From NCBI GenBank assembly GCA_013001755.1, contig JABDLY010000031.1, forward strand, positions 1 through 34,156: 34,156 nt of DNA, written 5' to 3'. The notes under the pieces are model-generated. The model had not been told where the DNA came from, did not search any database, and saw only the letters and a list, made by a program, of their open reading frames with translations. Origin of the DNA: Sphingomonadaceae bacterium (GTDB taxonomy: Bacteria; Pseudomonadota; Alphaproteobacteria; Sphingomonadales; Sphingomonadaceae). Positions 29,274 to 34,156 of this stretch are shown piece after piece. How positions within the stretch are numbered: position 1 is the stretch's first letter; each line of letters begins with the position of its first letter. Both the position numbers and the translations under genes were made by a program.

Positions 29274-30053
29274 ATGTCCCGCCGCCGCCAGATTTACGAA
29301 GGCAAGGCCAAGATCCTCTATGAGGGGCCCGAACCGGGCACGATCATCCAATATTTCAAGGATGACGCGACCGCGTTCAACAATCAGAAAAAGGGCACGA
29401 TCAACGGCAAGGGCGTGCTCAACAACCGGATTTCCGAACATATCTTCACGCGGCTCAACCATATAGGCGTGCCCAACCACTTCATCCGCCGTCTCAACAT
29501 GCGCGAGCAACTGGTTCGCCAGGTGGAGATCGTGCCGATCGAGGTGATCGTCCGCAATGTCGCCGCCGGCTCGCTTTCGAAGCGGCTCGGCATCGAAGAG
29601 GGCGAGCCGCTTCCCCGCACGCTGATCGAATATTGCTACAAGGACGACGCGCTGGGCGATCCGCTTATCGCCGAAGAACATATCGCCTGTTTCGACTGGG
29701 CGACCCAGGAAGAGATGAACCAGATCGCCGACATGGCGATCCGCGTGAACGACTTCATGTCGGGCCTGTTCTCCGCGATCAATATCCGGCTGATCGATTT
29801 CAAGCTCGAATTCGGACGGATTTGGGAAAACGAGTTTTCTCGGCTGATACTCGCCGATGAAATCAGCCCCGATGGCTGCCGGCTATGGGACATGGATTCG
29901 AACGAGAAGCTCGACAAGGACCGTTTCCGCCGCGATATGGGCGGAGAAGTCGAGGCATATCAGGAAGTTGCGCGCCGCCTCGGCCTGTTGCCGGAAGAAT
30001 CCGAGAACGAGGTTCTCGACCTCGAACAACACCGTAAAAATCGCGGAAAGTAG
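29274..30053 (+). CDS. purC: Phosphoribosylaminoimidazole-succinocarboxamide synthase
   Basis: [75 protein letters not shown] at 29274. Confidence 0.97.
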
Positions 30054-30107
30054 ACAAAAACAAGCGCCAGTCCTTTACGCGCCTTTAACCAGTTAACGGT
30101 TATCGCA

Positions 30108-30136
30108 CCCTTCGAGTTCGACCGATCCTCGAAGGG
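30108..30136 (+). promoter_or_regulatory. Hairpin sequestering the Shine-Dalgarno of the surface lipoprotein gene
   Basis: CCCTTCGAG (30108-30116), 11-nt loop, CTCGAAGGG (30128-30136), perfect 9-bp stem; the 3' arm contains the only purine-rich SD candidate, 9 nt before the ATG at 30146. Confidence 0.55.
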
Positions 30137-30145
30137 ACGATATCC

Positions 30146-31504
30146 ATGCGCAATTTTCTGGCCCTGATGGCTGCATCCACCATGCTCGCTGCTTGCGGCG
30201 GCGGCACCGGCCCCACTTTCGCGGGCAGCGCCGCTCCTCCGGCAACCGGCGGCGGCACGGGCGGCGGATCCGGTGGCGGCACGGGCGGCGGCAATACTGG
30301 CTCCAGCCACAGCTTCGTCAATCCGACCGAAGTTCGCACTTATCAGGGTATCGGCGGCGCGCAGACCTATAGCTATCTCAACGAGATTCTCGTCGATCCA
30401 ACAACCGGCAGCTTCATCGGCAATGCCACCAGCCACCAGGCACAGACCTATGCGGGTAACGCATCGTCGGCGCGCAATTCGAACATATCGATCACCTATG
30501 ATCCGCGCGGCGGCGTCTACACGCTGAGCATCGCGGACCCGGCCTCGGGCACCAATGTATCGACGAATTTCCAGGATCCGGCATCGCGGACCGATTTCGG
30601 TGGCAATGTAGAGCCGCAATGGGGAACGCCGGACACCGGATTCCAGAACGTCTCGATCTTCGAGGCGGGCGATGGCGACCCGATTTCGCCCTATCGCCGC
30701 AGCGGCCAGGGCCGTGTCGAACTCGGCCGCAACGACCTCCCGCCGCTCGGCGAGGACGGCAGCTCCTACCAGTCGGCGACGATCTTTCTGCAAAATCCCG
30801 GCAGCGGCACCGATTATGTCACCTTTGCCGGCTTCGTTCGCAACGCGTATAATTATGCCGAGATCGAAGAAGACAATAATGGCGTCACTACGACGACCTA
30901 TCGGGTGGAGCATGAGATTTCGCGCGGCGCCTTTGTCTTTGGCGAGCGCACGCTGAACCAGGATGTTCCGACGACGGGCTTGTTCGATTTCAGCGGCAAC
31001 ATGCTCGCAACGATGATCAACAACCCGACGATCGACGGCCAGAATGGCAGCTCGCTCGACAGTTTTTATCAGTGGATCGAAGGGTCGGTCGATCTGACCG
31101 TCGACTTTGCCAATAACGAAGTCCGCGACATCCTGCTCAACGGTATCGTCAGCGATCCGCAGATCGACGCTCTGACGCAGAACAGCGGCAATTACGATCC
31201 CAATGGCATCTACAGCTATCTGCCGGGCGGCACCGCGTTCGAAGCAAGTGGATCGGCGACGATCGACCTTGTCGGCGCCGGCGGTTTCCTCGGGGCGATC
31301 GATACCGCGCGCTTCGTGGCGCAGGGCGGCAATCTCTTCGCCGACGGTTCGTCGGTCCAGGATATCCTGATCGAGGGTTCGAGCATCGACGGCGCCTTTT
31401 TCGGCCCCAATGGCGATGAAGTCGGCGGCGGATTCCGCATCGTCGGCGGTATCCCCGATGAACGGATCGATATCATGGGCGTGTTCACCGCTGGGCGAAA
31501 CTAG
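30146..31504 (+). CDS. TbpB-like surface lipoprotein (transferrin-binding protein-like fold)
   Basis: Lipobox MLAACGGG, Gly-rich tether GGGTGGGSGGGTGGG, C-terminal barrel pattern VQDILIEGSSIDGAFFGPNGDEVGGGFRIVGG...IMGVFTAGRN; followed by a Slam-like gene. Confidence 0.82.
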   Translation: MRNFLALMAASTMLAACGGGTGPTFAGSAAPPATGGGTGGGSGGGTGGGNTGSSHSFVNPTEVRTYQGIGGAQTYSYLNEILVDPTTGSFIGNATSHQAQTYAGNASSARNSNISITYDPRGGVYTLSIADPASGTNVSTNFQDPASRTDFGGNVEPQWGTPDTGFQNVSIFEAGDGDPISPYRRSGQGRVELGRNDLPPLGEDGSSYQSATIFLQNPGSGTDYVTFAGFVRNAYNYAEIEEDNNGVTTTTYRVEHEISRGAFVFGERTLNQDVPTTGLFDFSGNMLATMINNPTIDGQNGSSLDSFYQWIEGSVDLTVDFANNEVRDILLNGIVSDPQIDALTQNSGNYDPNGIYSYLPGGTAFEASGSATIDLVGAGGFLGAIDTARFVAQGGNLFADGSSVQDILIEGSSIDGAFFGPNGDEVGGGFRIVGGIPDERIDIMGVFTAGRN

Positions 31505-31536
31505 CGGCTGACGGTGCCGAAGACGGAGCGGCCCGA

Positions 31537-32898
31537 ATGCAGAAACAGACATATATCGCGGCGATCGCCGCAAGCTGGATCGCCATGGCGGGTTCGCCCG
31601 CTGCCGCGCAAGACGATACGCTATGCGAGAACGGCGGGTGCACGATAGCGATGGACGGCAATGCGCTGCTCGCTTCGGCAAGCCGCCTGATCGAGGCTGA
31701 GCGTTATGACGAAGCGCGTCTCGTGCTCACGGCGCTCGAAAACTCGCCCGAACTTTCGACGCAGACCAATCTGCTCATGGGCCATGTCGCGATGCGCGCA
31801 GGCGATATCGACGGTGCGATCGGTCATTTCCGCACGGTGCTCAACGAGCAGCCGGGCCAGATCCGCGCGCGGCTCGAGCTTGCCCGCGCGCTGATGATGG
31901 CAGGGCGTCATTCTTCGGCCGATCATCATTTCAGGCTGGCCGAGCAGGACGACAATCTGCCCGAGGATGTTGCGAACCTCGTGCGTTCGGCGCGCGGGCT
32001 CATTCGCGATCGTCGCGGCTGGCATCTCGATGTCGAAGTCGGTTTCGCGCCCGACACCAATATCAACAACGCGACCGACACCCAGCGCGTCGATCTCGTC
32101 GCCGGTCCGTTCGTACTACCGCTCAGCCTCGGCGAGAATTCGCGCGCCCAATCGGGTATCGGCCAGATTGTCGGGCTGTCGGGCGGAATAGAGGTCGGGC
32201 TGTCGGGCGATGTCGCGCTCAGCATCGATGCCGATGCGCGCTTTACCAATTATTCGGGCGGCGATTTCGACGATCTTTCGGGCGCTCTCGCGATCGGCCC
32301 CGAAATCCGTTTCAGCGACCGCAACCGGCTCACCGTCCAGGCGCTCGCCAATCAGCGATTCTATGGCTGGAACGACGCGCAGCGCAGCTTCGGCCTCCGC
32401 GCCAATTATCAGCGCGTGCTCAACCGCGGCGCGCGGCTTGCGCTGGCGGTCGATGGACGTCGGATCGACTCGGGCTTCGGCGACCAGTTTTCAGGTTGGC
32501 AGATGGGGCTTTACGGCACCTATGAGCAGGTACTCAATCGATCGCTGATCGCCTCGGCGACTGTGTTCGGACGCCGCGACGCGCTCCGCTCGGACGCCTA
32601 TTCGCATTTCGAAGTCGGCGGCCGTATCGGCATTGGCGGCGAGCTTCCGCTCGGCATCAACGCCGGCGTCTCGGGCGGCGTATCGCGCGCGCTCTACGAC
32701 GGCGCGTTGCCCCTGTTTTCGGTGAAACCGCGTCAGGATTGGCGTTTCAACAGCCAGGTCCAGCTCGGTCTGCGCAGTTTGCGCGTGCTCGGCTTCTCGC
32801 CCACGGTAACCTATAGCTATGGCCGGACCGACAGCAATGTTTCGCTTTTCCAGTCGGACAGGCATCGCGTCGAGTTTGGCCTCGCGCGCTATTTCTAG
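31537..32898 (+). CDS. Surface lipoprotein assembly modifier (Slam-like, DUF560-type barrel)
   Basis: Signal peptide ending SPAAAQ; TPR-like region (ALLASASRLIEAERYDEARLVLTAL, GHVAMRAGDIDGAIGHFRTVL); GFAPDTNINNATDTQRVD; long beta-strand-rich C-terminus ending in aromatic RVEFGLARYF. Confidence 0.82.
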   Translation: MQKQTYIAAIAASWIAMAGSPAAAQDDTLCENGGCTIAMDGNALLASASRLIEAERYDEARLVLTALENSPELSTQTNLLMGHVAMRAGDIDGAIGHFRTVLNEQPGQIRARLELARALMMAGRHSSADHHFRLAEQDDNLPEDVANLVRSARGLIRDRRGWHLDVEVGFAPDTNINNATDTQRVDLVAGPFVLPLSLGENSRAQSGIGQIVGLSGGIEVGLSGDVALSIDADARFTNYSGGDFDDLSGALAIGPEIRFSDRNRLTVQALANQRFYGWNDAQRSFGLRANYQRVLNRGARLALAVDGRRIDSGFGDQFSGWQMGLYGTYEQVLNRSLIASATVFGRRDALRSDAYSHFEVGGRIGIGGELPLGINAGVSGGVSRALYDGALPLFSVKPRQDWRFNSQVQLGLRSLRVLGFSPTVTYSYGRTDSNVSLFQSDRHRVEFGLARYF

Positions 32899-32924: not shown

Positions 32925-33074
32925 TTACCGGCCCACTTTGGTGCCGCAGATAACACCGAAAACGAAAGTCGCGACAAGCGCCAGCTGGACCATTCCGCGC
33001 GGATCGGCATAGCCGAGTATGTCTTCGCCAAATGCGAACAATCCGACAAACATTGCAAGTGCGAGGGCAGCCAT
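32925..33074 (-). CDS. Small membrane protein (49 aa), absent from supplied ORF track
   Basis: Reverse complement reads MAALALAMFVGLFAFGEDILGYADPRGMVQLALVATFVFGVICGTKVGR*; two hydrophobic segments; upstream AGGAAG SD-like sequence. Confidence 0.6.
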   Translation of the reverse strand: MAALALAMFVGLFAFGEDILGYADPRGMVQLALVATFVFGVICGTKVGR

Positions 33075-33265: not shown

Positions 33266-33865
33266 ATGAACGCGGACACACGCAACAGGATCGTCGAAGC
33301 GGCAAAAGAGCTATTCTGGCAAAAGGGCTATAATTCGACCTCTATCGCCGACATATTGAGCCGGACCCAAGTCCATAGCGGCAGCCTCTATCACTTTTTC
33401 CCCGGAAAACAGGATCTGCTTATCGGCGTGCTCGAATCGCACAGCGAGCGCATCGGTCCCGACCTGCTCGATTACGCCTGGCAGGGCATCGACGATCCGA
33501 TCGACAAAATTTTCGCGCTGCTCGGCGGCTATCGAACGGCGTTGCTGACGACCGAATGCAGCTTCGGCTGCCCGATCGGCAGCCTCGCGCTCGAACTGCA
33601 CGAGCCCGACCCCAAAGTCCGCGCGCTGATGGCCGAAAATTTCGACAACTGGACGCGCGCGATCGAGGGCTGTCTCGAAGACGCCGCCGACAGGCTCCCC
33701 CCCGACACCGACCGCAGGGCGCTCGCCGAATTCGTGCTGACGACGATGGAGGGCGCGGTGATGCAATGCCGCACGCAGCGCGACATCGGCTTTTTCGATC
33801 GCAGCATCGCGATGCTGCGTAAGCATATCGACATGCTGATGGCGGGAGTGACTGCCGACGCCTGA
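33266..33865 (+). CDS. TetR/AcrR family transcriptional regulator
   Basis: TRNRIVEAAKELFWQKGYNSTSIADILSRTQVHSGSLYHFFPGKQDLLIGVLE helix-turn-helix. Confidence 0.95.
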   Translation: MNADTRNRIVEAAKELFWQKGYNSTSIADILSRTQVHSGSLYHFFPGKQDLLIGVLESHSERIGPDLLDYAWQGIDDPIDKIFALLGGYRTALLTTECSFGCPIGSLALELHEPDPKVRALMAENFDNWTRAIEGCLEDAADRLPPDTDRRALAEFVLTTMEGAVMQCRTQRDIGFFDRSIAMLRKHIDMLMAGVTADA

Positions 33866-33891
33866 GATATCTAAAACAGGGAGAATCCAAG

Positions 33892-34156
33892 ATGGACATC
33901 AATTATCTTGCCGTAATCGCGGCCGCGCTTTCGGCATTCCTGCTCGGCGGTATCTGGTACGGACCGCTTTTCGGCCGCAAATGGCGCGAACTGAATGAAA
34001 TATGGGACGACGAAAAGCAGGAGGGCCATCCGGCCCGCGTATTTGGCGGTGCCTTCGTATTCTCGCTGATTTCGGCTTTCGTATTCGCGATGTTTCTCGG
34101 ACGCGGCGTCGAGCTCGGCTTTGCGATAGGCGTCGGCTTTGCGGCCGGTTTCGCTT
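33892..34156 (+). CDS. DUF1761 family membrane protein (truncated by window end)
   Basis: MDINYLAVIAAALSAFLLGGIWYGPLFGRKWRELNEIWDDEKQEGHPARVFGGAFVFSLISAFVFAMFLGRGVELGFAIG. Confidence 0.85.
   Translation, partial: MDINYLAVIAAALSAFLLGGIWYGPLFGRKWRELNEIWDDEKQEGHPARVFGGAFVFSLISAFVFAMFLGRGVELGFAIGVGFAAGFA

Follow-up and report, generated by a model that had tools for sequence, protein, structure and literature searches.

What would an environmental sphingomonad do with a pair of adjacent genes resembling the Slam systems of pathogens, and when would it use them? The question is raised by two open reading frames in the window, that is, the whole 34,156-nt stretch of Sphingomonadaceae DNA that was analysed. 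An earlier note, made from the letters of the sequence, had described them as a surface lipoprotein (SLP) gene followed by a Slam gene, and both ORFs were found at the coordinates it gave, on the same strand with a gap of 32 nt:

30146..31504, + strand: SLP, predicted Slam cargo, 452 aa (PF01298; relatives' matches; PDB folds)
31537..32898, + strand: Slam/T11SS outer-membrane protein, 453 aa (PF04575; model pLDDT 90.2)

Because of the domain scores, the structural models, the fold matches and the strict conservation of the gene pair in 63 relatives, we read the two genes with high confidence as a predicted T11SS (type XI/Slam) unit, consisting of a putative surface-anchored binding protein and its outer-membrane exporter. 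According to sequence and models, Slam most likely puts the SLP on the cell surface. One Slam gene and one TbpB_B_D gene are present in the source genome.

The SLP begins with a signal peptide and a lipobox, LAAC, with Cys17, continues into a Gly-rich stretch, and matches PF01298 (TbpB_B_D) over residues 274-450 at 33.7 bits (Pfam cut-off 26), in agreement with the lipoprotein proposed in the earlier note. Cys17 is invariant across 47 SLPs, the lipobox and start could be placed in 60 of 63 relatives' SLPs, and PF01298 was matched by all 20 SLPs scanned among the relatives. The AlphaFold2 model, built on a 47-sequence alignment (mean pLDDT 83.8), shows a disordered tether at the N-terminus, then a beta-rich handle and finally an 8-strand barrel, and the parts of the protein are placed as follows:

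30197..30313, + strand: Gly-rich disordered tether after the predicted lipidated Cys17, residues 18-56 (sequence; pLDDT <50 at residues 16-53)
30323..30955, + strand: handle/effector domain of the SLP, about residues 60-270 (AlphaFold2 strands 64-266)
30980..31498, + strand: TbpB-type 8-strand barrel of the SLP, residues 279-451 (PF01298; 8 modelled strands)

The best 36 PDB matches of this model in Foldseek are all TbpB, LbpB, NHBA or fHbp, which are Slam cargoes, and the chains 5kkx and 6cuj, each a single lobe or domain, gave target-normalised TM-scores of 0.51-0.67. Only one PF01298 match and one modelled barrel were found, rather than the two lobes of TbpB. Sequence variability among the SLPs is highest in blocks 81-100, 241-260 and 341-360, with 241-260, inside the handle, as the top 20-residue block, and conservation is highest over the last 32 residues, where the last two barrel strands vary least. 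From this pattern we infer that the barrel end may be a shared export signal and the remainder a variable binder.

The second protein matches PF04575 (SlipAM/DUF560) over residues 162-453 at 84.1 bits (Pfam cut-off 22), and its N-terminus matches TPR_19 at 38.2 bits (cut-off 25); the Slam-specific profile TPR_Slam scored under its cut-off for the window Slam (27.3 vs 35.2). Its AlphaFold2 model comprises seven helices followed by 14 barrel strands:

31657..32013, + strand: periplasmic TPR-like helices of Slam, residues 41-159 (TPR_19; seven modelled helices)
32020..32892, + strand: 14-strand outer-membrane barrel of Slam, residues 162-452 (SlipAM profile; 14 modelled strands)

The TPR-like N-terminus and outer-membrane barrel claimed for this protein were therefore recovered by both profiles and model. 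The earlier note had also named profile searches and AlphaFold models as ways of checking its reading: the DUF560/SlipAM and TbpB_B_D scores both exceed their cut-offs, and the 8-strand barrel appears in the SLP and the helices with the 14-strand barrel in Slam, within the very stretch, 31537-32898, where that note had allowed that a barrel might be lacking.

BcsC and PelB are the best PDB fold matches of the Slam model, and a high score was also obtained for the porin OmpG. Since BcsC and PelB likewise have TPR helices joined to a barrel, the second protein could be taken for an exopolysaccharide exporter of their kind and the lipoprotein for its partner, with no Slam pair at all. We regard this as highly improbable and rejected it on strand number and SlipAM score, as 14 strands were modelled and the SlipAM match reaches 84 bits; in addition, recurrent polysaccharide genes are absent nearby, and a lipoprotein partner with a TbpB barrel is found in every relative checked. 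The fold ranking itself says little, because no solved Slam is among the PDB matches listed for the model. When the PDB was searched by sequence with the SLP or Slam as query, TPR or chance matches were the only ones returned, and NCBIfam holds no specific model for the pair.

Under the preferred Slam reading, the SLP would be synthesised with a lipoprotein signal, acquire its lipid at Cys17 and travel to the outer membrane, where the TPR domain and 14-strand barrel of Slam would move it outside, with the C-terminal TbpB-type barrel of the SLP acting as the export signal. Once on the surface, the Gly-rich tether would hold out the single handle-plus-barrel lobe, which would then bind some partner. 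Slam itself has been described as the translocon, aided by the chaperone Skp (PMC9090332).

The pair belongs to a known kind of system, since both T11SS subcluster 1C, described in PMC8406197 (Grossman 2021) as largely environmental Sphingomonadaceae without characterised members, and Sphingomonas cargo with TbpBBD barrels (Grossman 2025, PMC12282271) have already been reported. Such systems are, according to PMC12282271 and PMC8406197, already catalogued in Sphingomonadaceae. By description, the pair matches subcluster 1C and was provisionally assigned to it on that basis: a DUF560 protein of an environmental sphingomonad is present in both, and here a TbpBBD lipoprotein lies adjacent. Every T11SS that has been verified by experiment belongs to the animal-associated cluster 1 (PMC12282271). 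Like Neisseria Slam1 with TbpB or fHbp, the window pair combines a TPR domain and 14-strand barrel with a lipoprotein that has a C-terminal 8-strand barrel; unlike it, the window pair has a single-lobe cargo, no TonB receptor nearby and an environmental alphaproteobacterium as its host. The SLP also resembles the Sphingomonas surface proteins and the disordered N-terminus 1 cargo (PMC12282271) in being a predicted T11SS cargo with a disordered N-terminus and a C-terminal barrel. However, where the Sphingomonas surface proteins carry several TbpBBD domains along with Pro-Thr repeats, the SLP has a Gly-rich tether and one TbpBBD.

How widely the pair is distributed was examined at two levels. 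Among 301 family genomes, a SlipAM match was found in 91 and an SLP match in 37, five of the latter being marginal. Many family genomes carry SlipAM proteins without an SLP of the window type, for example L172, L174 and L179, and L174 has two tandem Slam-like genes. For the named genomes, a scan with the Slam alignment found 141 loci, of which 80 were kept, while a single-protein scan of genome contigs returned zero relatives. The closest kept locus is that of a Parasphingopyxis MAG, with a Slam 67-68% identical to that of the window, followed by Sphingomonas and its relatives, which agrees with the sphingomonad origin that had been guessed from the sequence.

We separated 65 close loci (L102-L166) from the more distant Slams (L167-L181), with genes at the loci called by a codon-score caller. 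In all 63 close loci with upstream sequence, Slam is immediately preceded by the SLP in the same orientation, bearing out the claim of a Slam-pair architecture, and in the distant group the SLP match is weak or absent. In L109 and L160 the SLP appears to be split between frames, as does Slam in L164; these genes are perhaps assembly errors or decaying copies. A further mark of the close group is found at the start of the mature Slam:

31618..31647, + strand: likely Cys30/Cys35 hairpin at the start of mature Slam (subfamily-specific conservation)

Cys35 is present in 32 of 32 close Slam sequences and Cys30 in 31 of them, and both are mostly missing from the distant Slams; a disulfide hairpin is likely.

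The pair usually has purine genes as neighbours, one of which lies before it in the window:

29274..30053, + strand: purC (SAICAR synthetase), conserved upstream neighbour (PF01259 280 bits)

The purC family was found upstream of the pair in 22 loci from 10 genera. With identities assigned by Pfam, purC occurs around the pair in 39 of the 65 named loci, purS in 42 and purQ in 42, and the usual site of the pair is between purC and purS-purQ. In the window, purC lies 5' of the pair, and a TetR gene and a DUF1761 gene, the latter cut by the contig end, lie 3' of it; in the Parasphingopyxis MAG, the TetR-DUF1761 cassette lies 5' of the SLP and purS comes after Slam. As a side observation, the TetR-DUF1761 genes occupy 33266-34156 of the window, after Slam, vs positions 273-1322 of L102, the locus of the Parasphingopyxis MAG, before the SLP, giving two cassettes swapped in one purC-purS gap. 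Empty sites were also seen: in three genus mates that lack the pair (L189, L193, L194), a few hundred nt separate purC from purS, and an SLP match is absent from five genus mates. Reading by eye, we noticed a putative membrane protein of about 49 aa downstream of Slam (about 32926-33074, minus strand), and a similar protein of about 49 aa seems to be present between purC and purS in the pair-less L193 and L194.

PurC and Slam distances correlate across 39 loci (Mantel r 0.55, p 0.001), a pattern compatible with a mainly vertical descent of the pair, with losses; transfer is also possible. Co-occurrence of T11SS with purine-metabolism genes has been published (PMC12282271), and the purC-purSQ placement offers a simple reason for some of it.

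When the pair would be expressed is suggested by the DNA between purC and the SLP, where two features were located:

30074..30090, + strand: predicted CtrA-type box TTTA-N7-TTAACC, with TTAACC 61 nt before the SLP start (conserved; unique in the window)
30099..30106, + strand: possible -10 element GTTATCGC (from T/A-rich columns common to relatives, 15-17 nt after the TTAACC start)

The box pattern matches once in the window, with 0.01 expected, and the left half-box of this site is degenerate. TTAACC occurs in 54 of 61 SLP upstreams, taken as the 130 nt before the start codon, when 2.2 would be expected from shuffles; it nearly always stands 47-70 nt before the SLP start and is missing from the other 7. 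A T[ATG]N[AG] half-box lies exactly 7 nt upstream in 53 of these 54; no other spacing tried gave more than 15. At the same loci, TTAACC was found before none of 37 purC and none of 42 purS genes, and outside the purine context it is kept in 12 of 18 pairs. The possible -10 element GTTATCGC was compared with the Caulobacter-type -10 element GCTANAWC. The predicted site in the window has the layout of a CtrA full site, TTAA-N7-TTAA, for which a variant TTAACCAT and activating sites near -35 have been described (PMC6180460).

We consider it probable that the SLP-Slam operon is under CtrA control through this full box, which lies about 60 nt ahead of the start codon and is predicted to bind CtrA. 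A site for another regulator, or a promoter feature unrelated to CtrA, is the unlikely alternative, and two findings speak for it. The ctrA gene was not found in the source assembly (90.5% complete), in which a ChpT-type protein is present; and the strict pattern is not enriched genome-wide, with 6 matches vs 8 for the reversed control, so that its meaning rests on position and conservation. Against this alternative stand the exact N7 spacing and the nine other genus genomes, every one of which encodes a CtrA with 76-79% identity to an approximate Caulobacter CtrA query. The company of the box argues in the same direction: of its six strict occurrences in the source genome, those besides the SLP lie near cheA, which has a gene of the chpT type next to it, near a chemoreceptor gene (in opposite orientation), and near two GGDEF genes and one membrane protein gene.

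In Sphingomonas melonis, motility, EPS and c-di-GMP are under the control of CtrA (cited in PMC8921679), and Sphingomonadales have conserved the CckA-ChpT-CtrA relay (PMC2877005). For these reasons we prefer a role linked to motility or attachment: under CtrA control, the SLP would act with that programme, as an adhesin or surface-contact factor, and not as the partner of a TonB receptor. Tentatively, and with somewhat less than even confidence, we propose that the SLP is a CtrA-timed surface binder or adhesin with an attachment-linked role rather than a nutrient co-receptor.

A nutrient role would make the SLP of this T11SS unit a protein capturing iron, heme or metal (like TbpB, HpuA or hemophilin) and feeding a TonB receptor encoded at a distance. 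The SLP fold is indeed closest to TbpB/LbpB, and iron and heme genes frequently accompany cluster 1 T11SS (PMC12282271). We nevertheless find this reading doubtful, given the CtrA-like character of the conserved upstream site and a cargo that is single-lobed instead of two-lobed. No TonB receptor was found in the window or among the recurrent or sampled large neighbours of the relatives, which extends the absence of an adjacent receptor noted earlier. A conserved set of His or Cys ligands is also absent from the residues conserved in >60% of 47 SLPs, the sole conserved His column being 147 (Ser in the window SLP) and the only conserved Cys being the lipidated Cys17. That the ligand might be metal or heme, as suggested in the earlier note, gains no positive support from these residues, and a heme or metal ligand was set aside on this basis.

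What appears new in the preferred, CtrA-linked reading is the conserved upstream DNA site that suggests CtrA control. The earlier note mentions neither this site nor the location of the pair among the purine genes. The T11SS literature, in the parts examined, yielded neither the CtrA-type promoter nor the Cys30/Cys35 pair of Slam: a CtrA box and the Cys pair are not mentioned in the consulted part of the subcluster 1C description (PMC8406197), and the term CtrA is absent from the main text of PMC12282271. The conserved site gives a concrete hypothesis on when and why an environmental Sphingomonadaceae branch displays its cargo. Whether the CtrA cell-cycle and motility programme takes in an entire lineage of environmental type XI systems is, in our judgement, an evenly balanced matter. 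If it does, a surface lipoprotein would appear on the cell at a defined stage, coinciding for instance with motility, attachment or a biofilm switch, and Slam would here be used differently from the way it is in pathogens, where its known roles are in host-nutrient capture and immune evasion.

Finally, a possible hairpin was identified between the promoter region and the SLP start:

30108..30136, + strand: 9-bp inverted repeat CCCTTCGAG/CTCGAAGGG in the SLP 5' UTR, its 3' arm abutting the ribosome-binding region (fold energy z -2.9)

Folding is strong in some upstreams, the window among them, but the mean fold-energy z over 53 upstreams is only -0.9, and the hairpin was dropped as a shared RNA element. 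In the window it possibly serves translational control. Hairpins of differing sequence recur in the SLP 5' UTRs of L108, L114, L124 and L159.
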